From Paraglaciecola psychrophila 170 (GTDB lineage: Bacteria > Pseudomonadota > Gammaproteobacteria > Enterobacterales > Alteromonadaceae), in NCBI RefSeq assembly GCF_000347635.1, contig NC_020514.1, forward strand, positions 5,349,692-5,413,691: a stretch of 64,000 nucleotides of DNA, read 5' to 3'. This document shows positions 2,250 to 22,200 of this stretch, one piece after another (within the stretch, counting starts at the first letter, position 1; every line of letters begins with the position of its first letter). The notes below the pieces were generated by a model that did no database searches, had not been told where the DNA came from, and saw only the letters and a program-made list of their open reading frames with translations. The position numbers were made by a program, and so were the translations under genes.

Positions 2250-4724
2250 ATGTTTAATAAACTCATCACTATAGCAGTGCTGACGTTTGCGACTATTGGC
2301 TCGGCAAATGCAGCGATAAATCAAACTAAGGGCAACTTTGAAGATAAGTTTCGCCAATTAGACGAATCACTACCGACCCCTAACGTATACCGTAACGCTG
2401 CAGGCGAACCCGGACACGAATATTGGCAGCAACAGGTAGACTATAAAATCAAAGCGAAGTTAGACGAAGAAAAGCGTCGAATAGAAGCTAGCCAAGTCAT
2501 CACATATCACAATAATTCGCCCGATACGCTTAAGTACTTGTGGATGCAATTGGATCAAAACGTTTTCCGCAATGACTCGATGTCAGCTATGACAACCGAT
2601 TTTGGTGGGTCCAGTAATCGTGGACCAGCATCATCATCAGCCTCTAACAGTGAGCCAGCAAAACTCAGTTTAGGTGCCTTACGTCGCCAACAGTTTACTA
2701 GCGATAATGTATTGGGTTATGACATCCAATCGGTTAAAGATACAAATGGCAAAACCCTGAAACATACGATTGTGGGTACCAACATGCGTATCGACTTACC
2801 GACTCATCTTAAGCCAGGTAAAAAAGTCGAATTTAGTATCGATTACGCCTTTAATATAGTGGAAGAAGATGCAGTCTCAGCTCGTTCAGGTTACGAGCAC
2901 TTTCCTGACGACGAGCGCAAAGGTGGCAATGGAGGCAACGATATATTCTTGCTTGCTCAGTGGTTTCCACGTTTGCATGCTTACACCGATTATGAAGCTT
3001 GGACAAACAAAGAATTTCTTGGGCGTGGTGAATTTACCTTAGAGTTTGGTAACTACGACCTGGAGTTAACTGTACCTGCAGATCATATTGTTAGTTCAAC
3101 AGGTGCATTACAAAATCCTAAAGACGTATTAACCTCGACTCAACGCAAACGCTTAAAAGAAGCAGAAAAAGCGGCTCGTACAGTATTTGTCGTGACTGAA
3201 GAGGAAGCTTTAGAAAACGAAAAAGAAGGTACAGATAAATTTAAAACGTGGAAATTTAGAGCTGAAAACGTCAGAGACGTAGCATGGGCTTCATCACGTA
3301 AATTCATGTGGGATGCCCGAGGACATCAACAAGGTGGTAACGACCAACCTCTTGTTATGGCTATGTCTTTTTATCCTAAAGAAGGGGGCGATTTATGGAA
3401 GAAATATTCTACTGAAGCCGTGATCCAAACCTTAGAAGTGTATAGCCGTTTTTCTTTTGATTATCCTTATCCCGTGGCGCAATCGGTTAACGGCCCTGTA
3501 GGTGGCATGGAATACCCGATGATCACCTTCAATGGCCCTCGCACTGAATTACAAGACGATGGTAGCCGTACCTATTCACAGGCAGAAAAGCGTTTCTTAG
3601 TGGGTGTGGTTATCCACGAAGTGGGGCATATTTATTTTCCTATGATCGTCAACTCAGACGAACGTCAATGGACTTGGATGGATGAAGGCCTCAACAGCTT
3701 TTTAGACGGTGTAGCAGGTCGTGAATGGGATCCAACTATTCCTTGGGGCGTAGAGCCGCGCGATATCGTGAGCTATATGAAGTCGTCTAATCAAGTACCT
3801 ATTATGACTCAGTCAGATAGTGTGTTGCGTTTAGGTCCTAATGCTTATACTAAACCTGCTGCGGCATTAAATATTTTGCGCGAAACTATTTTAGGCCGTG
3901 AGTTATTTGATTTTGCTTTTAAAGAATACGCACAGCGCTGGAAATACAAACGTCCTACACCTTCAGACTTTTTCCGCACCATGGAAGAAGCTTCAGGTGT
4001 TGATTTAGATTGGTTCTGGAGAGGTTGGTTTTATAGCACTGATCATGTGGATATTTCGTTAGATAAAATTTCAAAACTGCGCATGGATACTAAAGACCCA
4101 GATATTGACTTCAATCGCTTACGCCAAGAAGAACTAGACAAGCCTATGTCTTTCACTGATGAGCGAAATAGTGCCGAAGGCAAAAAACTTTGGGTCGAGC
4201 GTTTCCCTGACATAACTGACTTTTATGACGAAAACGATCGCTTTACAGTGACCAATAAAGAGCGTAACAAATATAAAAAATTCCTGAAGGACTTGAAACC
4301 TTGGGAAAAGACAGCTTTTGAACGCGCCGTAAAAGAAGACAAAAACTACTACGTGTTAGAGTTTTCTAATAAAGGTGGTTTGGTGATGCCGATTATCTTA
4401 GAACTTACTTTTGCTGACGGCAGCATGGAAAATCAATATATCCCTGCAGAAATTTGGCGCCGTACACCTGAAGCAGTGAATAAAATGATAATCACTGACA
4501 AAGATAAAGAATTGGTTAGTGTTACGGTTGATCCACGTTGGGAAACAGCCGACGTCGATATAAGCAATAACCATTACCCGCGTCAAATTATCCCGTCACG
4601 TATCGAAGCCTATAAAAAGAAAAAGAGTACCCAGAAAGTATCTCGCGATATCATGCAAGATATTAAAACTGAGCTGAAAGAAGACAGTGACATCGAAGAA
4701 GATGAAAAAGATAACGATGAATAA
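2250..4724 (+). CDS. Secreted M1-family (gluzincin) zinc metallopeptidase
   Basis: An 824-residue exported peptidase of the M1 aminopeptidase superfamily. A signal peptide (residues 1-22, ending SANA) directs export. The zinc site is complete: HEVGH at residues 456-460 and the third ligand in WMDEG (E479) at the usual spacing. GGMEYP at about 418-423 corresponds to the family's GAMEN-type substrate-binding motif. The C-terminal tail is strongly acidic and lysine-rich. The start is supported by an AGGGA ribosome-binding site. Its stop overlaps the next gene by 8 nt, so the two are probably co-translated. The cleavage specificity cannot be predicted; periplasmic peptide digestion is the likely role. 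Confidence 0.9.
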   Translation: MFNKLITIAVLTFATIGSANAAINQTKGNFEDKFRQLDESLPTPNVYRNAAGEPGHEYWQQQVDYKIKAKLDEEKRRIEASQVITYHNNSPDTLKYLWMQLDQNVFRNDSMSAMTTDFGGSSNRGPASSSASNSEPAKLSLGALRRQQFTSDNVLGYDIQSVKDTNGKTLKHTIVGTNMRIDLPTHLKPGKKVEFSIDYAFNIVEEDAVSARSGYEHFPDDERKGGNGGNDIFLLAQWFPRLHAYTDYEAWTNKEFLGRGEFTLEFGNYDLELTVPADHIVSSTGALQNPKDVLTSTQRKRLKEAEKAARTVFVVTEEEALENEKEGTDKFKTWKFRAENVRDVAWASSRKFMWDARGHQQGGNDQPLVMAMSFYPKEGGDLWKKYSTEAVIQTLEVYSRFSFDYPYPVAQSVNGPVGGMEYPMITFNGPRTELQDDGSRTYSQAEKRFLVGVVIHEVGHIYFPMIVNSDERQWTWMDEGLNSFLDGVAGREWDPTIPWGVEPRDIVSYMKSSNQVPIMTQSDSVLRLGPNAYTKPAAALNILRETILGRELFDFAFKEYAQRWKYKRPTPSDFFRTMEEASGVDLDWFWRGWFYSTDHVDISLDKISKLRMDTKDPDIDFNRLRQEELDKPMSFTDERNSAEGKKLWVERFPDITDFYDENDRFTVTNKERNKYKKFLKDLKPWEKTAFERAVKEDKNYYVLEFSNKGGLVMPIILELTFADGSMENQYIPAEIWRRTPEAVNKMIITDKDKELVSVTVDPRWETADVDISNNHYPRQIIPSRIEAYKKKKSTQKVSRDIMQDIKTELKEDSDIEEDEKDNDE

Positions 4725-5217
4725 AATCGTTAATTACTTAGTAGGAGCGCTGCTGTTTGCAGCGTTCTCACTTTCAGCTCACCAACAAAAGTCAGCTATT
4801 AGCACTGTTTTGTTTAATCCGCGTACCGAGAATATCGAAATCATGCACCGTTTTAGGGTGCATGACGCTGAACATGCAGTAAGAGAAATATTGGGTAAAG
4901 ATGCAGATATCATCGACTCAAAAAAGACTCAAGAACAGTTTGGCGAGTATGTTAATCAACGCTTTAGTTTATTTGATAGTGATAAACAATCACTTCCACT
5001 AAAAATGGTAGGGGTTGAATTAGATGGCAAATTTTTCTGGGTTTATCAAGAAACAACACAACCTACCAAAATAGACAACATGACAATACGTCATGACGCA
5101 CTGCGTGATCTTTGGCCTGAGCAGGTCAATACTATTAATGTTGAGGGTAAAGGAAAATTACAAACACTGACTTTTACCGATTCAGTTGAATTACTAAAAC
5201 TCACGTTCGAACACTGA
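4717..5217 (+). CDS. Small exported protein, DUF6702-like
   Basis: A 166-residue protein starting at the ATG at 4717, which overlaps the end of the upstream peptidase gene (ATGAATAA). This start gives a good signal peptide cleaved near SLSAH, whereas the longer reading from 4687 would bury it behind a charged stretch. After the cleavage site the mature protein begins with His and continues as an all-beta, charged sequence (MHRFRVHDAEHAVREI). It resembles the DUF6702 family of small exported proteins often found beside M1 peptidases. That assignment is from memory of the family pattern. Function is unknown; the translational coupling suggests a partner or chaperone of the peptidase. Confidence 0.75.
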   Translation: MNKIVNYLVGALLFAAFSLSAHQQKSAISTVLFNPRTENIEIMHRFRVHDAEHAVREILGKDADIIDSKKTQEQFGEYVNQRFSLFDSDKQSLPLKMVGVELDGKFFWVYQETTQPTKIDNMTIRHDALRDLWPEQVNTINVEGKGKLQTLTFTDSVELLKLTFEH

Positions 5218-5317
5218 ATCATTACTTTGCAACAAAGCTGATCTAGATCAATATAGGCTAATGAACATCACCTAAAATCACCTCGATTATGAAGTTATCT
5301 AACAGAGGTGAATCATT

Positions 5318-5434
5318 ATGTGGGATTTAATACTGCACGACCCAGTGGCTTGGGGCTCTATTCTTGGTATAGTGGTAGTCATGGGCGCTTATTATGCGTA
5401 CTTGATTATCCATAATGCTAAAAATAATATTTAA
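5318..5434 (+). CDS. 38-residue single-span membrane protein, DUF3149-like
   Basis: A short open frame preceded by a good ribosome-binding site (AGAGGTG at 5304-5310, 7 nt before the ATG). The product starts MWDLILHDPVAWGSILG and has one hydrophobic helix (about residues 12-30), then a short lysine/asparagine tail. Size and layout (an amphipathic start with DPV, one transmembrane span) match the DUF3149 family of tiny proteobacterial membrane proteins. Function is unknown. It is probably a single-gene unit, since the neighbours are on the other strand or more than 90 bp away. Confidence 0.6.
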   Translation: MWDLILHDPVAWGSILGIVVVMGAYYAYLIIHNAKNNI

Positions 5435-5462
5435 ACTTTTACGTCTTATCTAGCACAACCAC

Positions 5463-5780
5463 CTAGTAAGGCTGGCCCATAGAAAAAGGTAGTGTACAAG
5501 CACGTTGCACTGATTCAGGGTTACCTATCATCTCGTCATAAGGCGATTCGTGGAGCATTTGCGCGGCTAATATATTACAGCTGTCAAACGCATCACGGAT
5601 GAACTGCGAGCTATGAAAACGTTTAGGGCTATCACCTTCGTATACCAAACCAGTGATGTCACCAATGGTGAGCTTAACTAGGTATACATTCATCTCGTAA
5701 GAACACACAGTGAGCATATCCACAGTAATAGAACGCGACTCAATATCTTTAATCCAAAATTTAGTTTGCTGCACAGACAT
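5463..5780 (-). CDS. Conserved hypothetical protein, DUF6482-like
   Basis: A 105-residue soluble protein without signal peptide or membrane span. The middle region (YLVKLTIGDITGLVYEGD, then FIRDAFDSC) looks like the small alpha/beta DUF6482 family, in which a short beta sheet is followed by a helix with a conserved aromatic or basic motif. No catalytic motif is visible. It stands alone, convergent with the small membrane protein gene upstream. The family assignment is tentative. Confidence 0.55.
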   Translation of the reverse strand: MSVQQTKFWIKDIESRSITVDMLTVCSYEMNVYLVKLTIGDITGLVYEGDSPKRFHSSQFIRDAFDSCNILAAQMLHESPYDEMIGNPESVQRACTLPFSMGQPY

Positions 5781-6366
5781 TGCTCTTAAAAAACCAATTA
5801 GTAAGCTGAATACGTAATCATGAATGAATTGGTTCAGCTAAAAAATTTAAGAGTATATAGCTGTGAATATGTTGCCGACAAAGCAGAGGTTTATCGTTTA
5901 ACTGCCTAATTAAAACTAACAGTAGGCTATAATAATAATTCAAGGCAGCCAAAAATCGACGTAATGAATAATAAGCAGGTAATCAAAACATCTTCCACAG
6001 ATTAGTCTTTCAGCCCACCTTTGCAACAATCATAAACTCCTATAGTATGAATCAAGTAAACAATTAGATACAGGGTATACAACCCATTCAAAACAGGTTT
6101 ATACGGAGTTTCAGGGATACTAATAATTAACCTATCACAGGCTTGGTTTAACAATGGCAAAGATGCGTAAAGCCATGATCTTTTTGAAAAGCTCATAAAA
6201 AGAGATGCTGAATTAATTAAACGAGTCAACGAATATAAAAGGTATAACAAACACATCAAACCTGATTCCGCAAGCAGATTACTTTCTTGCAAAACACAAA
6301 AAAGCTTCTAACTAGCTAAGCTATTATATGCAAAGTGATAGCTACTTTAATCGACATGGAGATGTT
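5781..6366. other. 586-bp stretch without a convincing gene
   Basis: AT-rich. A 29-codon frame (5820-5909, +) and a TTG-started frame of 96 codons (6002-6292, -) can be drawn, but neither has a ribosome-binding site or recognisable homology. Probably promoter and leader DNA of the flanking genes. Confidence 0.4.
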
Positions 6367-8656: not shown

Positions 8657-9889
8657 TCAATTACTAGCCTCTACCATCGGCCCTGTTGCATTAATAATAT
8701 CTGCCTTCCTAAATAACAACAATAATCCGTTAATCAGTATGCTTACTCCTAGGGTCCATTCAATCCATACCGGTAACGTATAAACCACCAGAGTTACCAT
8801 GATTAAAGAGTATTTTATCCATTCTAAATTAATAGCTAAGGGGTTATTTTCCAAAACCAAACCAGCAGAAATACTGCCATAAAGAACAAAACCCACCACC
8901 AGAACTTGCTCTGCAAGCGTAAAAGCAGAAACATTCATCATCAGTAACAAACCAACAAACACCAACAATGAATACTGTATTAGGCTGTAAAATTTGTTTG
9001 TCAGAGACAGCGAAACATCAAATTTTCTAAATTGCGTGAGATCAACTTTACTCAAAGGATAATTTTGTTCAACATCAGCAGGTCGCCAACCAGTGCGTTT
9101 AAACCAGATGAGTAGCTTGTCTTGCCAACGATTTGCATGCCAGCAATCTTTACCTAACTGCGCATAAACATGTACGTTCGCCCACAGTGGATTCCAGCTT
9201 TTTAATGCTTTTCGAATACCATAAATGGGTTTATCACTATCCAACTCTTCTTGAAAAGAGCCAAACAACCGGTCCCAAAGAATAAATACGCCACCATAGT
9301 TTCGGTCTATATAGATTTGGTTTTGTGCATGGTGCACACGGTGATTAGAAGGGGTTACAAACACCCATTCATACCAACCTAGCTTAGGAATATGCCGGGT
9401 GTGTACCCAAAATTGATATATTAAGTTTAATGAACCCACCGTGATGAGCATAATAGGATCAAAACCCAATATTGCCATAGGTAAGTAAAAAATCCAGCTG
9501 AAGAAGCTGCTACCACTTTGTCGTAAAGCCGTGGTCAAATTGTATTCTTCACTAGAGTGATGCACCACGTGAGCAGCCCACAATATGTTCGTTTCGTGAC
9601 CGAAGCGGTGTTTCCAATAATAACAAAAATCATAAAGCACAAACGCAGTCACCCACATCCACCAACTCGATGATATTTGAAACATAGCCAACTGCTCATA
9701 AGCGACCACATAAATTGTGAGAGGCAATAACTGCTTAACAACGCCCGTCATTCTGCTCAACACACCTGCGGTCAAGCTATTAATACTGTCGTTAACACGA
9801 TAATAATCGGTGCTTTTATTTTTTTCCAACAACAATTCGATTAAAATTAAGAGGAAAAAAAAGGGCACTGCGTATAAAATAACATTCAT
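8657..9889 (-). CDS. Sterol desaturase / fatty acid hydroxylase family membrane protein
   Basis: A 410-residue integral membrane enzyme of the di-iron fatty-acid-hydroxylase superfamily. The histidine clusters that bind the two irons are complete: HRFGH (94-98), HVVHH (107-111) and HRVHH (183-187), with WVHTRH in between. Hydrophobic spans lie at about 3-20, 55-90, 130-160, and again in the C-terminal 110 residues. That C-terminal extension of several extra helices goes beyond the core domain. The family oxidises C-H bonds of lipids (sterols, carotenoids, ether or fatty lipids). The substrate here is unknown. The start lies upstream of a divergent DUF3014 gene. Confidence 0.88.
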   Translation of the reverse strand: MNVILYAVPFFFLLILIELLLEKNKSTDYYRVNDSINSLTAGVLSRMTGVVKQLLPLTIYVVAYEQLAMFQISSSWWMWVTAFVLYDFCYYWKHRFGHETNILWAAHVVHHSSEEYNLTTALRQSGSSFFSWIFYLPMAILGFDPIMLITVGSLNLIYQFWVHTRHIPKLGWYEWVFVTPSNHRVHHAQNQIYIDRNYGGVFILWDRLFGSFQEELDSDKPIYGIRKALKSWNPLWANVHVYAQLGKDCWHANRWQDKLLIWFKRTGWRPADVEQNYPLSKVDLTQFRKFDVSLSLTNKFYSLIQYSLLVFVGLLLMMNVSAFTLAEQVLVVGFVLYGSISAGLVLENNPLAINLEWIKYSLIMVTLVVYTLPVWIEWTLGVSILINGLLLLFRKADIINATGPMVEASN

Positions 9890-10067
9890 ACTATTCCCAC
9901 GCTTCTTAAAGTAGGTAAGTCACACATCTAGTCTAATGGCCTATTAATTGACAGTCTATATAAGAATACAATTACACTATATTACACTCTACGCATATCA
10001 TTTAGATGGAATTTTAAGTACGCTAAATCGACATGTTAATCACAGATGTTTGCTTAACGGGGAAATC

Positions 10068-10883
10068 ATGAGTGAAGAATCAAAAAAATCGTTAGTACCA
10101 CATTTCGTTATAGCTGCAATTGTATTGGCAATTGTCCTAGCCGTTGTATTTTGGCCCGCTGAGCCTGAACCAGTTATTATTGCGCCTGTTGAACCTGTTA
10201 TCGAGCCGATAGTCGAGCCGATAGTCGAGCCTATTATTGAGGCGCCGCCTGTTATTTTTATTCCAGAAGTAGTAGAGCAGCAACCTGAGCCCGAAATTAT
10301 CCCAGAGCCTGAGCCATTAGATACAAGCGATGGCACAGTAAAGACTAAATTATTAGCTCTATCTGACTACGAAGCATTCGCACGTTTGCTGATTGATGAA
10401 GCCTTACTAGAGCGCTTTGTAATAATGACTAATACCTTGGCTGATGAAAATTTAGCTGATAACAATAGAGTATTAGTGCAGCCAGAAAAGCCGTTTCGGA
10501 CTTACAGGCAAGCCGATAAAGAATGGATTGATCCTGCAAGCTTTAAACGTTACGTGCCTTACGTAGAAGTATTTGAGTCCCTTGAAACAGAATCACTATT
10601 GCAGTTATATCAAGAATACAAACCAGCTATAGAAAAAATATTTTCTGAAATAAGTAGTCCATCAGATAGTTTTGACGAAAAACTTGAAGAGGCAATAGAT
10701 GTATTACTAAATACCCCTGAAGTGCCTTTCCCGGTTGAAGTATATTCCGACAGCGTAATGTACAAGTTTGCTGATAAACAACTTGAATCTTTAACTGCTC
10801 CTCAAAAACAATTGTTACGCACAGGGCCTGAAAACATGCGCCGTATCAAAACCAAATTACGTGAGATAAAAGAAACACTGTAA
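10068..10883 (+). CDS. DUF3014 domain protein (membrane-anchored, Pro/Glu repeat linker)
   Basis: A 271-residue protein. The start at 10068 is preferred because GGGGAAA lies 6 nt upstream and the product begins with a cytoplasmic stub, one membrane helix (about 13-28) and then the domain. A low-complexity linker (about residues 30-85) repeats the unit EPIV with slight changes. The rest is a clear DUF3014 domain: ALSDYEAFARLLIDEALLERFV, YRQADKEWIDPASFKRYVPYVE and the terminal APQKQLLRTGPEN. Function is unknown; proteins of this kind are found in the envelope of many gammaproteobacteria. The stop codon overlaps the DUF1285 start by 1 nt, indicating an operon. Confidence 0.88.
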   Translation: MSEESKKSLVPHFVIAAIVLAIVLAVVFWPAEPEPVIIAPVEPVIEPIVEPIVEPIIEAPPVIFIPEVVEQQPEPEIIPEPEPLDTSDGTVKTKLLALSDYEAFARLLIDEALLERFVIMTNTLADENLADNNRVLVQPEKPFRTYRQADKEWIDPASFKRYVPYVEVFESLETESLLQLYQEYKPAIEKIFSEISSPSDSFDEKLEEAIDVLLNTPEVPFPVEVYSDSVMYKFADKQLESLTAPQKQLLRTGPENMRRIKTKLREIKETL

Positions 10884-17761: not shown

Positions 17762-18955
17762 TTAGATGACTATTGATTCATTAAAGTATTTGATAAAATC
17801 AAGTTTATAATCACTTGCGATCACAGCATCAACAATTTTTACGCCATTGCTAGCTGCAGTTAAATCCAGTTCTTTGGGCTCCAAATAGTGGCTACCACGT
17901 ACTGAATAAAATACTTTCACAACGGGTTTATTGGCATACACCGGGTGTTGTTTGAGTACCATGGCAATTTTCTGGTTGTTGAGTTTAACTAAACTGCCCG
18001 CAGGGAAAATGCCAATACATTGCACAAATTGTGTTACAAATCCTTCATCATACTTTTCAGGCGCATCTTGCAACAAAATTTGCAGTGCTTTTTTAGATGA
18101 CATTCCAACCTTATAACATCGGTCTGCTGTTATCGCATCATATGTATCCACTATTGCAATCATACGTCCAAATGTGCTGATTTCATTCCCACGAAGACCT
18201 TCTGGGTAACCATAACCGTCGAGCCTCTCGTGGTGTTGACCAATTGTTTCAACAATGGAATCAGGCATGCCCATTTCAATCAGCACTTTGGTGCCGTAGT
18301 ACACATGGTCTTTCATAGTGGTCATTTCTTGGTCATTTAAGCGCCCTGGTTTATGCAATATTTCATCAGGAATTTTAATTTTACCTATATCGTGTAAAAA
18401 ACCCGATAGCGCCAATTCTTGAATTTGTTCTTCATTCAAGCCTAGATGGGTACCAAAATTGGCTAACAAAATAGCCACATTTAATGAATGCTCTAAAAGG
18501 TAGGTGTCTTTTTCTCGTATTTTTGTCGTGCACATCAATGCATTAGGGTTGCGATTAATTGACGACACAAGATTTTTAGTAAACGCTTCTGGGATGGCAA
18601 TATCGATAGGTAAGTTTTTACCTAAGCTCTCTAACATTGTTTTTTGGAGGTGTTTACCTTTGAGGTGAAGTTTGGCTGCCACTCCAAGCTCAGCTTCAAA
18701 AGATGCTTCTTCAGGCGGCTCGGTAATTTTTTCGGGCTCGGGCTCTTGTTGTGCAACAACTTCCGGCTTGATTTGTTTGCTCATATCAACAACTACTGAC
18801 AAAATTCCTTTGTTTTTTAGATGTGTTATAGCGGCAAGAGAAGTAACCCTACCTCGACTAATAATCTTAAATTTGCCTTGTTGTTTTGCTATAGAGTCAA
18901 AGAACATTCCTTCTTCAACATCGTCTGTATCAAAGGTTTTCAACACAGTTAACAT
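17762..18955 (-). CDS. HD-GYP domain cyclic-di-GMP phosphodiesterase with DUF3391 domain
   Basis: A 397-residue cytoplasmic protein. An N-terminal DUF3391 domain covers about residues 1-110, separated by a Glu/Pro-rich linker (68-83). An HD-GYP domain follows (about 130-330). The HD pair is H188-D189 in FLHDIGKIKIPDEIL, the second histidine cluster is HHERLDGYGYP, and the GYP motif is at 249-251, so the metal site and GYP partner loop are complete. Such proteins hydrolyse cyclic-di-GMP to pGpG or GMP and thereby lower biofilm and raise motility outputs. It appears to be monocistronic. Confidence 0.92.
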   Translation of the reverse strand: MLTVLKTFDTDDVEEGMFFDSIAKQQGKFKIISRGRVTSLAAITHLKNKGILSVVVDMSKQIKPEVVAQQEPEPEKITEPPEEASFEAELGVAAKLHLKGKHLQKTMLESLGKNLPIDIAIPEAFTKNLVSSINRNPNALMCTTKIREKDTYLLEHSLNVAILLANFGTHLGLNEEQIQELALSGFLHDIGKIKIPDEILHKPGRLNDQEMTTMKDHVYYGTKVLIEMGMPDSIVETIGQHHERLDGYGYPEGLRGNEISTFGRMIAIVDTYDAITADRCYKVGMSSKKALQILLQDAPEKYDEGFVTQFVQCIGIFPAGSLVKLNNQKIAMVLKQHPVYANKPVVKVFYSVRGSHYLEPKELDLTAASNGVKIVDAVIASDYKLDFIKYFNESIVI

Positions 18956-19040: not shown

Positions 19041-19385
19041 CTAATACTCTAATTTCCATAACATTTCTGCCAAATCAGGTTGCCATTGATAAAGGCTAAA
19101 CTTAACTCGGTTATTAAAAACAGCAACCTCTTCTAGTTGCAATAAACCTGTTTGTATTTGTGATTGCTCAGATCCTGTGGGGAATGCAATTTGTCCATTA
19201 GAACGCAAGACTCTATGCCAAGGTACGTTCATATTTTTTGGTACGTAACCAAGTGACTTGCCTACTAACCTTGACCGCCCTGGTAATCCTGCAAGATCAG
19301 CAATTTGGCCATAACTTGCCACTTTTCCCAAGGGAATGAGCTGCACTGTGCGCCATATTTTGGTGTATTGCGGGTGTTCAAACAT
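19041..19385 (-). CDS. Alkyltransferase-like protein (ATL), MGMT family with PWHR motif
   Basis: A 114-residue protein of the O6-alkylguanine-DNA alkyltransferase C-terminal domain family. The helix-turn-helix and arginine finger region GKVASYGQIADLAGLPGRSRLVGKSL is intact. The active-site motif, however, reads PWHRV in place of PCHRV, so the alkyl-accepting cysteine is a tryptophan. This is the hallmark of ATL proteins, which bind O6-alkylguanine lesions without repairing them and hand them to nucleotide excision repair (known from E. coli YbaZ and fission yeast Atl1). Its stop lies near the HD-GYP start. It begins 9 nt after the end of the large Wzz-like gene, so the two are likely co-transcribed. 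Confidence 0.9.
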   Translation of the reverse strand: MFEHPQYTKIWRTVQLIPLGKVASYGQIADLAGLPGRSRLVGKSLGYVPKNMNVPWHRVLRSNGQIAFPTGSEQSQIQTGLLQLEEVAVFNNRVKFSLYQWQPDLAEMLWKLEY

Positions 19386-19394
19386 AGCAACAAC

Positions 19395-21389
19395 TTAGCT
19401 TGTCACAACAAAATTATATTGTGTTTGGATCTGCTCTAAATCAAGCAGTTTTCCTTGTTGGTTAACATTTCGATAAAGTGCTAAGTCACTGGGCGAGGTG
19501 TATCCGGCAACCTGTTCAATATCATTGAGTCTGGCACCTTGCCTAGCCAAATACGTTAAATATGTATGCCGAAGAACGTCGAGCGATAGCTGTCCGGGGA
19601 AAGCAATCTGTGCATCATGGCCAATATTGACTAAAAGCTGCAAAAAGTCTTCGTTGCTTTTAATATTCGACCAAATTGTTGCTTCATCTTTTAATTTGTT
19701 GCATGTAACTTGTAGTGCTTCAGCCAGTTCTTTCTGAATGTATATGTTGCGAGAAAATTGGCTATCTATCTGTAAAGTCGAATAATGTTGGCTGAAGTTT
19801 GTTTTTTCTATTCCCCATAATTCGTTAATAGTTACACCACTCAATAGTAAACCTATTATTGCCTTGCCTTGGTTATTTGCGACAGAAAACAAAGCCTGAC
19901 ATTCGTATGTACTTAACAAACGCAGTGTTTGGGTTATGGGCGATAATTTAAGCGGATCTGCTGGCAATTCTGGTGTGGGCGTCGAAAGCTGCCCATGTTG
20001 GGCATAACTTAGGCTTGACGACCCAACATTGTTTGCTTGTCTGGGCATAACAACAAAATTATGAGGCGCAGCAGTAATGACTTTTTGCCTAACAATAAAG
20101 CTATACAATAAAAGCGAAAATACGGCAGCAATAGTGGCAACAACTAGGCTCAATAAAGTATTGAATTGATAATTTGGTCCGATTGCGAAATCAGGTTCAA
20201 ATGCCGGCTCAAGCAGGGTTATCTTGGCTTCAAAAGGTTTAGATACTTCTTGAGCTACCTGTTTATTTGTTATGATTAGAGCCTGAGATTGTAGCGCCTT
20301 CAATTCATTGTCTAACCTTTTATATTGCTCAAGCTTCTGACTAAAGCTTTGTGCTAATTGAACTTGCTGTACTAACATGGTGCTTAACTGCTTAGCTTTT
20401 CCATTAGCCGTGTTTAAGTCTCGTTGAGTATCTTGTATATACTTCAATTGGCTTGTTTGCATTTGCACTTTAAGCTGTTGCTCCAGTTGCTGTGCTTTTT
20501 TTTGTTGAGAGACAATAGTTGGGTCACGTTCCAAGTAGGCTTCAGTATACTTTTCTGATAAGGCTATTAATTTGGCACTGATATCTTGAAGGTTTATTTT
20601 TGTGTCATCTATTTGTGATTTATCATCTGGTCGAATAACCTCTTGGCCCCTTTCAATAGATTCAGTCAAGCTATCAAGTAATGCTTTGGCTTGAGCTTGA
20701 TCTGCGACGGCTTGGTCAAGACTTTCCCCTAAGTTTTTGGTTTGACTTAAAACCCGATTTTCATCTCGTTCTAGCGATGTAATATTGTTTTCTAGGGCGA
20801 ATAATTCTAAAGATTGCTGTTGATTGGCGATTTTATCTTCTAACAGTGCTAACTGTTCGCTTGAAACCTGTAACTCCACATTATTACTAACTTCAGTTTC
20901 AGACTCGACTAACTGCAAATAGACTTTTGAGAGTACATCTAAAATTGGTTTAAGAACTTGTGGGTCATTGCCATTGGCTTTAAGTGAAAGAATACGGCTT
21001 GTTAGACTGGCTTCCACTGATAATGCCTGAAAAAGTGTTTGAACATCAATTATCAATCCCTGGCCTTGCTCTAACTCTTGGGAAACACGACTCAACACGC
21101 TATTACTTTTTAACCTTTGTTGATGCAGCGTAATTTGCTGCTGAGCCAAATCAGCGAACCCTTGGTCAGTTTTTGATTTATATGAAAAATGCAAAATAGA
21201 TTGGCTTTGGTAAACCGGAGCTTGGCTCCATATCAAAGCATTGGTGATTATTAGCACCAACAAAAACATGCCTATTAAGACCTGCCATCTTCGCTTTTGA
21301 ATCCGTTTGTGTTCCACGTCGGATGCATTTGTACCAACGCCAGAAAAGGGTTGATTTGGCATATAGTCTATTTTGTTATTAAATGACAT
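19395..21389 (-). CDS. Wzz/GumC-like envelope coiled-coil protein fused to a degenerate tyrosine-recombinase-like domain
   Basis: A 664-residue protein. Residues 36-54 form one membrane span. Residues 55-405 are a long, helix-rich, glutamine-rich extracytoplasmic region of Wzz/GNVR (chain-length determinant) type with extended coiled coils. A second span lies at 409-433. After a polar linker, residues about 485-645 match the catalytic half of tyrosine recombinases: LLLSGVTINELWGI aligns with the G-L-R-x-S-E-L block, LSLDVLRHTYLTYLARQGARL with H-x-L-R-H-T, and VAGYTSPSDLALYRNV with G-H-x-S...Y. R607 and Y639 are kept. The first arginine (T520), the histidine of HxxR (D604) and the GH histidine (Y630) are replaced, so strand exchange is not expected. 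In related polysaccharide copolymerases this cytoplasmic position holds a tyrosine kinase. No polysaccharide genes are adjacent. Confidence 0.72.
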   Translation of the reverse strand: MSFNNKIDYMPNQPFSGVGTNASDVEHKRIQKRRWQVLIGMFLLVLIITNALIWSQAPVYQSQSILHFSYKSKTDQGFADLAQQQITLHQQRLKSNSVLSRVSQELEQGQGLIIDVQTLFQALSVEASLTSRILSLKANGNDPQVLKPILDVLSKVYLQLVESETEVSNNVELQVSSEQLALLEDKIANQQQSLELFALENNITSLERDENRVLSQTKNLGESLDQAVADQAQAKALLDSLTESIERGQEVIRPDDKSQIDDTKINLQDISAKLIALSEKYTEAYLERDPTIVSQQKKAQQLEQQLKVQMQTSQLKYIQDTQRDLNTANGKAKQLSTMLVQQVQLAQSFSQKLEQYKRLDNELKALQSQALIITNKQVAQEVSKPFEAKITLLEPAFEPDFAIGPNYQFNTLLSLVVATIAAVFSLLLYSFIVRQKVITAAPHNFVVMPRQANNVGSSSLSYAQHGQLSTPTPELPADPLKLSPITQTLRLLSTYECQALFSVANNQGKAIIGLLLSGVTINELWGIEKTNFSQHYSTLQIDSQFSRNIYIQKELAEALQVTCNKLKDEATIWSNIKSNEDFLQLLVNIGHDAQIAFPGQLSLDVLRHTYLTYLARQGARLNDIEQVAGYTSPSDLALYRNVNQQGKLLDLEQIQTQYNFVVTS

Positions 21390-21585: not shown

Positions 21586-22200
21586 ATGACGACTATAAAA
21601 ACGAATAAAAGACAAATATGTGAAAAATGTGGTTACCCACAAAACACCTGCTTATGCGTTTGGGTAAATCCCATTACAGCGCCACTTAATATCATTATTT
21701 TACAGCATTCTAAAGAAGCAAAACATGCAAAAAATACAGTTAAGTTGTTAGCCTTAGGATTAAAAAAGATAACAGTGTTAGTGGGTGAAAAACCCGACGA
21801 CTGGACAGAATTAGCACAACATGTCGCTAAACAACCGCAAGATTACAGCTTATTTTATCCGCATGAACAAAGTACCTCAGTTGAATCTATTTCCTCACCA
21901 GAACTAAAACAAAGGGTTTTCCCAGTTAATCACAATGTAATATTTATTGATGCATCATGGCGTAAAGCCCTGAAAATTTGGCACCTTAATCCTTGGTTAC
22001 AGCAATGTAATAACTGGCACTTTACTAATCCACCTGATAACCAGTACCACATTCGACACACATCTCAGCAAGATAGCCTATCGACGCTAGAGTCAGTAGC
22101 TTATGTACTTGAGCATACTCACAACATTGATTGTAGTCAGTTGCATGCTCTGTTCTCAAAAATGCAGCAGAAATGTTTCCTAGAAAACTACAAGCAATAA
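21586..22200 (+). CDS. tapT: DTW-domain tRNA-uridine aminocarboxypropyltransferase
   Basis: A 204-residue DTW-domain protein. The N-terminal zinc-binding cysteines are CEKCGYPQNTCLC. The SPOUT/TDD-fold blocks follow: LNIIILQHSKEAKHAKNT, FIDASWRKALKI (the family's D-x-[ST]-W motif) and the YHIRHTSQQDSLSTLESVA block. E. coli TapT (YfiP) uses SAM to attach the acp group to U47 of tRNAs. Length is near the usual 220-230 residues. It is monocistronic, divergent from the Wzz-like gene. The symbol is by analogy with the E. coli enzyme. Confidence 0.82.
   Translation: MTTIKTNKRQICEKCGYPQNTCLCVWVNPITAPLNIIILQHSKEAKHAKNTVKLLALGLKKITVLVGEKPDDWTELAQHVAKQPQDYSLFYPHEQSTSVESISSPELKQRVFPVNHNVIFIDASWRKALKIWHLNPWLQQCNNWHFTNPPDNQYHIRHTSQQDSLSTLESVAYVLEHTHNIDCSQLHALFSKMQQKCFLENYKQ

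Follow-up and report, generated by a model that had tools for sequence, protein, structure and literature searches.

The window analysed here is the whole 64,000-nucleotide stretch of Paraglaciecola psychrophila 170 contig NC_020514.1, and within it we studied a gene for a 664-amino-acid protein that joins a coiled-coil membrane protein to a domain resembling tyrosine recombinases (Table 1). Such a fusion had been proposed in an earlier note on this DNA, made from the letters alone, and was confirmed by a Phage_integrase profile match (PF00589), a fold match to XerA and a topology like that of the co-polymerase Wzc. The aligned sequences and the predicted structure together show that the protein consists of two halves, that the recombinase active-site residues are lost while the rest is conserved, and that both halves are inherited as a unit. 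The protein matched only one place in the 5.41-Mb window genome, which is a single contig.

Layout of the fusion protein

By hydropathy and in the predicted structure, two membrane helices flank a large periplasmic domain of alpha/beta and coiled-coil character, the arrangement that marks polysaccharide co-polymerases (PCPs); the earlier note had already described two spans around a long coiled-coil region. The long helices of the periplasmic part run over residues 143–200, 206–246, 254–280 and 290–382. The AlphaFold2 model, computed from 67 sequences, orders the chain as a short cytoplasmic start, the periplasmic alpha/beta part with its long helices, the second membrane helix, a linker and a compact C-terminal domain. 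Its mean predicted local distance difference test (pLDDT) score was 80.3, and the C-terminal block scored mostly 83–93, dropping at the very end. The predicted template-modelling score was low (0.36), so the mutual placement of these parts is untrustworthy. Linker blocks 441–480 were among the least conserved of the protein.

A gene on the opposite strand was rejected, as the ORF list of the window holds no open reading frame (ORF) of at least 100 amino acids there. We likewise rejected a frameshift, an assembly error or a chance fusion because at least 33 public-genome loci encode proteins of this length and layout, and their two halves were inherited together with one shared history.

Table 1 Positions of the fusion gene, its parts and its neighbours within the window
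Feature	Position	Strand	Remarks
Gene for 664-amino-acid fusion protein	19395..21389	(-)	ATG start at 21389, stop 19395-19397
First membrane helix, about residues 35-55	21225..21287	(-)	Hydropathy > 1.6; model helix 22-55
Periplasmic PCP-like region, residues 57-405	20175..21221	(-)	Alpha/beta part and long helices
SLERDEN motif, residues 205-211	20757..20777	(-)	Within best conserved periplasmic stretch
Second membrane helix, about residues 408-434	20088..20168	(-)	Hydropathy helix about 409-434; prolines P399 and P405 just before
Cytoplasmic linker, residues 435-486, predicted disordered	19932..20087	(-)	pLDDT < 50 for 436-487
Pseudo-recombinase domain, residues 487-664	19398..19931	(-)	PF00589; XerA fold match 485-641; hidden Markov model (HMM) test
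Box II LRHTYLTYLARQG, residues 606-618	19536..19574	(-)	Holds R607 (second catalytic arginine) and H608
Y639, nucleophilic-tyrosine position	19473..19475	(-)	Present in 123/124 members
Alkyltransferase-like gene (PF01035)	19041..19385	(-)	9 bp downstream of fusion gene
HD-GYP-type gene (HD_5, DUF3391)	17762..18955	(-)	Next after alkyltransferase-like gene, same direction
DTW-domain gene (PF03942)	21586-22200	(+)	Upstream of fusion gene, other strand

A recombinase fold without its active site

The structural comparison with recombinases that the earlier note had suggested, made as a second look with VIA-align and the full-length model, placed XerA on residues 485–641 among the matches listed; this, PF00589 and the HMM test support the tyrosine-recombinase catalytic fold. 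We compared active-site positions in 124 non-redundant members, using XerC and XerD of the window genome as the reference (proteins shorter than 600 amino acids were left out and the set was thinned at 75% identity). The members fall into a nearer (‘gamma’) and a distant (‘beta’) group, which are the hits of two separate protein searches; in these searches the 8000 candidates sharing most words were scored and the best 120 noted each time.

The first catalytic arginine was present in none of the 124 members, with serine, asparagine, threonine or alanine mostly in its place, and the hairpin lysine was also absent from all of them, the alignment having a gap there. Histidine occupied the second position in four members and the third in seven; the third position was a tyrosine in 36 of the 44 nearer members and arginine or proline in 57 of the 80 distant ones. 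The replacement of the first arginine and both histidines, noticed earlier in the window protein, thus extends through nearly all members, and so does the retention of R607 and Y639: the second catalytic arginine was kept in 117 of 124 and the tyrosine at the nucleophile position in 123. Also retained were the glutamate three residues past the first-arginine site (122/124), the arginine of the KxR turn (123/124) and the histidine following the second arginine (123/124). The tyrosine and the second arginine would suit a working membrane-tethered recombinase; with the first arginine and the lysine lost throughout and the histidines mostly gone, we disfavour that explanation and give it hardly any credence.

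The box-II and tyrosine regions ranked with the best conserved stretches of the entire fusion protein. The ratio of non-synonymous to synonymous substitution rates (dN/dS) for the C-terminal domain was 0.018–0.133 in nine of 14 partly overlapping pairs, by which measure the domain is under purifying selection in most comparisons, and the alignments read as those of a conserved inert domain, not of debris. About 20 residues past the tyrosine, at about residues 650–660, a motif in the tail closes with a conserved proline (YP, HP or LP), for which the window protein has N. It recalls the HPR tail of XerC and XerD and could be a relic of a tail-exchange element.

The domain is also acidic. Its median isoelectric point (pI) was 5.0 among the 44 nearer members and 5.16 among the 80 distant ones, and it lay below 6.5 in 122 of 124 members and above 8 in one. 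For 30 genuine integrase domains, taken from the window genome and from related genomes, the median pI was 9.42 and none fell below 6.5; seven of the 37 loci had no match spanning 140 profile positions and were left out. DNA binding is disfavoured because the domain is acidic where genuine integrases are basic, and from its sequence the domain probably binds no DNA, although charge is an argument rather than proof.

A precedent for DNA binding is MrpR of phage SPbeta, a dead recombinase that acts as a DNA-binding repressor; according to the accessible text of its description, it keeps three of seven catalytic residues, has V or S in place of the first arginine and has a tyrosine that seems important for DNA binding (PMC10516654). 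The fusion family resembles MrpR in having a tyrosine-recombinase fold without the first arginine and the histidines, put to a new job, but MrpR has a core-binding domain, binds DNA and is basic in its last 210 residues (pI 8.71), and that text mentions no membrane helices. MrpR as a whole has a pI of 6.1, so charge can argue but not prove; the corresponding values for yopP, a second SPbeta integrase-like protein, were 7.21 for the last 210 residues and 8.91 for the whole, the 210-residue cut being our own in both proteins. XerA, XerD and Cre catalytic domains likewise differ from the fusion domain, which lacks the first arginine, the lysine and a core-binding domain and is acidic and membrane-tethered.

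A domain that still bound DNA would anchor the envelope protein on the nucleoid or on an operator, in the manner of MrpR, which binds DNA as a repressor without a full catalytic set. The whole-protein pI of MrpR, the tyrosine and second arginine retained in the fusion family and the gene pairing described below are on the side of this idea, which we nevertheless consider quite improbable: besides the charge difference, no core-binding domain precedes the fold, and in the model and by hydropathy a disordered linker and a membrane helix occupy its place. The nucleoid coupling imagined in the earlier note therefore found no support, and a nucleoid tether is disfavoured by charge, with the caveat of MrpR's whole-protein pI. 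Of the DNA- or protein-binding module suggested there, we prefer the protein-binding half.

The co-polymerase-like half and its shared history with the recombinase domain

Solved PCPs matched the predicted structure in the same VIA-align comparison, with the fold and topology of Wzc. In nine of 11 members scanned, the PCP half scored best, among named profiles, with TIGR03007, the profile of the XrtA/PEP-CTERM chain-length determinant. The Wzz profile PF02706 matched at E ≤ 0.01 in seven members of the nearer group (67 scanned) and in 49 of the distant group (62 scanned). A proline-rich segment at the second membrane helix is a PCP motif; P399 and P405, near this helix, were invariant in 67 sequences, and an ad hoc proline pattern matched in 98 of 122. 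Public names of the relatives vary between ‘tyrosine-type recombinase/integrase’ and ExoP/GumC, a likeness to GumC thus being on record for some of them. Wzc, a PCP-2a co-polymerase with a bacterial tyrosine kinase, differs in what follows the membrane helix: the fusion has a recombinase fold instead of the kinase, no Walker A GK[ST] anywhere in the window protein and no tyrosine-rich C-terminal tail there, tyrosines past residue 600 occurring only at 610, 613, 630, 639 and 658.

Searches with the full-length protein, also proposed in the earlier note, found whole-protein matches in nine of 118 sampled genomes of the family and, at E ≤ 1e-40, in six of 369 genomes of the class; two short peptide patterns found at least 33 loci in a species-level genome collection. 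Among the matches listed, the distant relatives include at least Aromatoleum, Azoarcus, Burkholderiales and Casimicrobiaceae. Pairwise distances of the two halves were correlated (r 0.93 for all 122 sequences, and 0.87 and 0.74 for the two groups taken separately), the best r in 500 permutations being 0.08. This correlation is what a single old fusion would give if it has been passed on intact and patchily lost or transferred.

Interpretation and gene neighbourhood

We regard the protein as probably a PCP-2-like inner-membrane co-polymerase of the Wzc or GumC kind, whose kinase module has been replaced by a dead tyrosine-recombinase domain acting as a scaffold. The TIGR03007 and Wzz profiles and the fold match thus support the earlier suggestion that a Wzz/GumC/Wzc-like co-polymerase carries a repurposed recombinase fold at the usual place of the kinase. 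Recombinases form rings by exchanging C-terminal elements, which makes their fold a plausible ring-forming or partner-binding module. The fusion protein would form rings like Wzc, in which the acidic pseudo-recombinase domain may bind neighbouring subunits or a cytoplasmic partner; such binding would direct how the ring assembles or how long the polymer grows, with neither phosphorylation nor DNA contact involved. A bolder and more tentative proposal is a phosphorylation-free PCP-2 class, in which a pseudo-recombinase with the second arginine, histidine and tyrosine kept might serve as a ring-assembly or ligand-sensing switch replacing the kinase.

The Wzc kinase domain is the cytoplasmic part of an octamer that dissociates on phosphorylation (PMC8285477), and kinase cycling is the standard account of Wzc-type switching in the accessible text of PMC8285477 and PMC12004946. 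In Myxococcus, binding alone is the proposed means by which the pseudokinase EcpK supports the co-polymerase EpsV (PMC12004946, accessible text), and the scaffold would act in much the same way. Like GumC/PCP-2b and EpsV with EcpK, the fusion would be a co-polymerase served by a cytoplasmic module that does no catalysis, but its module is a pseudo-recombinase in the same chain rather than a separate pseudokinase; the accessible text of the EcpK paper (PMC12004946) does not contain the word ‘recombinase’. Retaining the machine and swapping the kinase for a non-catalytic fold would be a third solution. We found no paper describing the fusion among the open-licence literature, in line with the earlier statement that no characterised protein of this type was known. 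To our knowledge, no tyrosine-recombinase fold has previously been shown to work in the cell envelope rather than on DNA. What makes the fusion clearly interesting is that co-polymerase machine and kinase are separated in it. By trading the kinase for a dead recombinase while retaining the machine, the family would amount to a swap experiment made by nature, bearing on the task that the cytoplasmic module has to perform, and to a case of a DNA-enzyme fold moved to the envelope.

Several observations weigh against the scaffold explanation. The window protein had no PF02706 match in Pfam at E ≤ 1 and only a weak TIGR03007 match, far under the equivalog cut-off (28.2 against 278.85 bits); the Wzz cut-off was passed by only one of ten diverse relatives, and the Phage_integrase cut-off likewise by only one. 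Three relatives (L033, L040 and L041: a gammaproteobacterium, a member of the Chromatiales and a Motiliproteus) had no PF00589 match at E ≤ 1, which suggests that their pseudo-recombinase has drifted still further. The dN/dS of the C-terminal domain was looser in three of the 14 pairs (two Colwellia, one Aromatoleum), at 0.24, 0.35 and 0.83, the last with a dS of only 0.03, and two pairs gave no value. MrpR shows that the fold can bind DNA without an active site, and the tight pairing with an alkyltransferase-like gene, of DNA-repair type, could hint at a DNA-related role. No polysaccharide-synthesis genes are direct neighbours of the window gene, nor do any directly adjoin it in the Alteromonadaceae relatives whose neighbours were read.

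The surroundings vary among loci. Three Colwellia loci share one polysaccharide setting, with glycosyltransferase, CDP-glycerol glycerophosphotransferase and cytidylyltransferase genes before the fusion gene and, following it, genes of Wzy_C and Wzx type; the Pfam names are those of a single one of these loci, in which an acyltransferase gene is also present. One Burkholderiales locus has the fusion gene among manC, SLT lytic transglycosylase, UDP-sugar dehydrogenase, epimerase and DegT aminotransferase genes. The polysaccharide role put forward earlier thus has support from context in some relatives and none at the window itself. A PCP-like protein that has left the polysaccharide pathway for a different role in the envelope, with coincidence or an ancestral state behind the Colwellia and Burkholderiales loci, would accord with the non-polysaccharide surroundings of the window gene and most relatives with neighbours read, and with three further Wzz matches above cut-off in the window genome, one of them in an ORF where a kinase-like part was recognised by eye. 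We think this unlikely, as the fold and topology are those of Wzc and the Colwellia loci have their polysaccharide setting in common.

In L037 (Burkholderiales), the fusion gene is flanked by one ORF that resembles GlmS by eye and a GlmU-like ORF with NTP_transferase and hexapeptide repeats, the two occupying 9077-10510 (-) and 4306-6183 (-); both neighbours belong to UDP-sugar supply. Of six further genome regions, five were read, and in these no polysaccharide locus was seen by eye directly beside the fusion gene; one of the five, L082, has ORFs resembling glycosyltransferase and deacetylase genes about 3 kb away. Gene calls in GC-rich loci followed a rough codon-position rule.

An alkyltransferase-like gene follows the fusion gene in 20 of 42 loci (16 without probable duplicates), in all 20 on the same strand and within 17 bp, so the two are probably co-transcribed. 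Identity values of L002, L004, L005, L006 and L008 equal those of another locus, and these are probably the same genes; the five were left out of the alignment and kept in the 42-locus counts.

An HD-GYP-type gene was nearby in 18 of 42 loci. It could speak for a sensor, in which the kept pocket (second arginine, histidine, tyrosine and KxR arginine) would bind a phosphate-bearing ligand, perhaps a nucleotide sugar or signal nucleotide, and so switch the co-polymerase; the arginine that contacts phosphate is among the retained residues. We judge this sensor improbable, since every locus seen with an HD-GYP-type neighbour belonged to the group that has the alkyltransferase-like gene.

A DTW-domain gene of either of two clusters was nearby in 23 of 42 loci. 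In the Paraglaciecola arrangement it lies before the fusion gene on the opposite strand; in the Alteromonas arrangement it belongs to another cluster and lies after it on the same strand. L023–L027, L034 and L036 have a DTW-domain gene downstream. Transposase-like ORFs were seen by eye near the fusion gene in L078 (7670-8569) and L079 (13551-15364).
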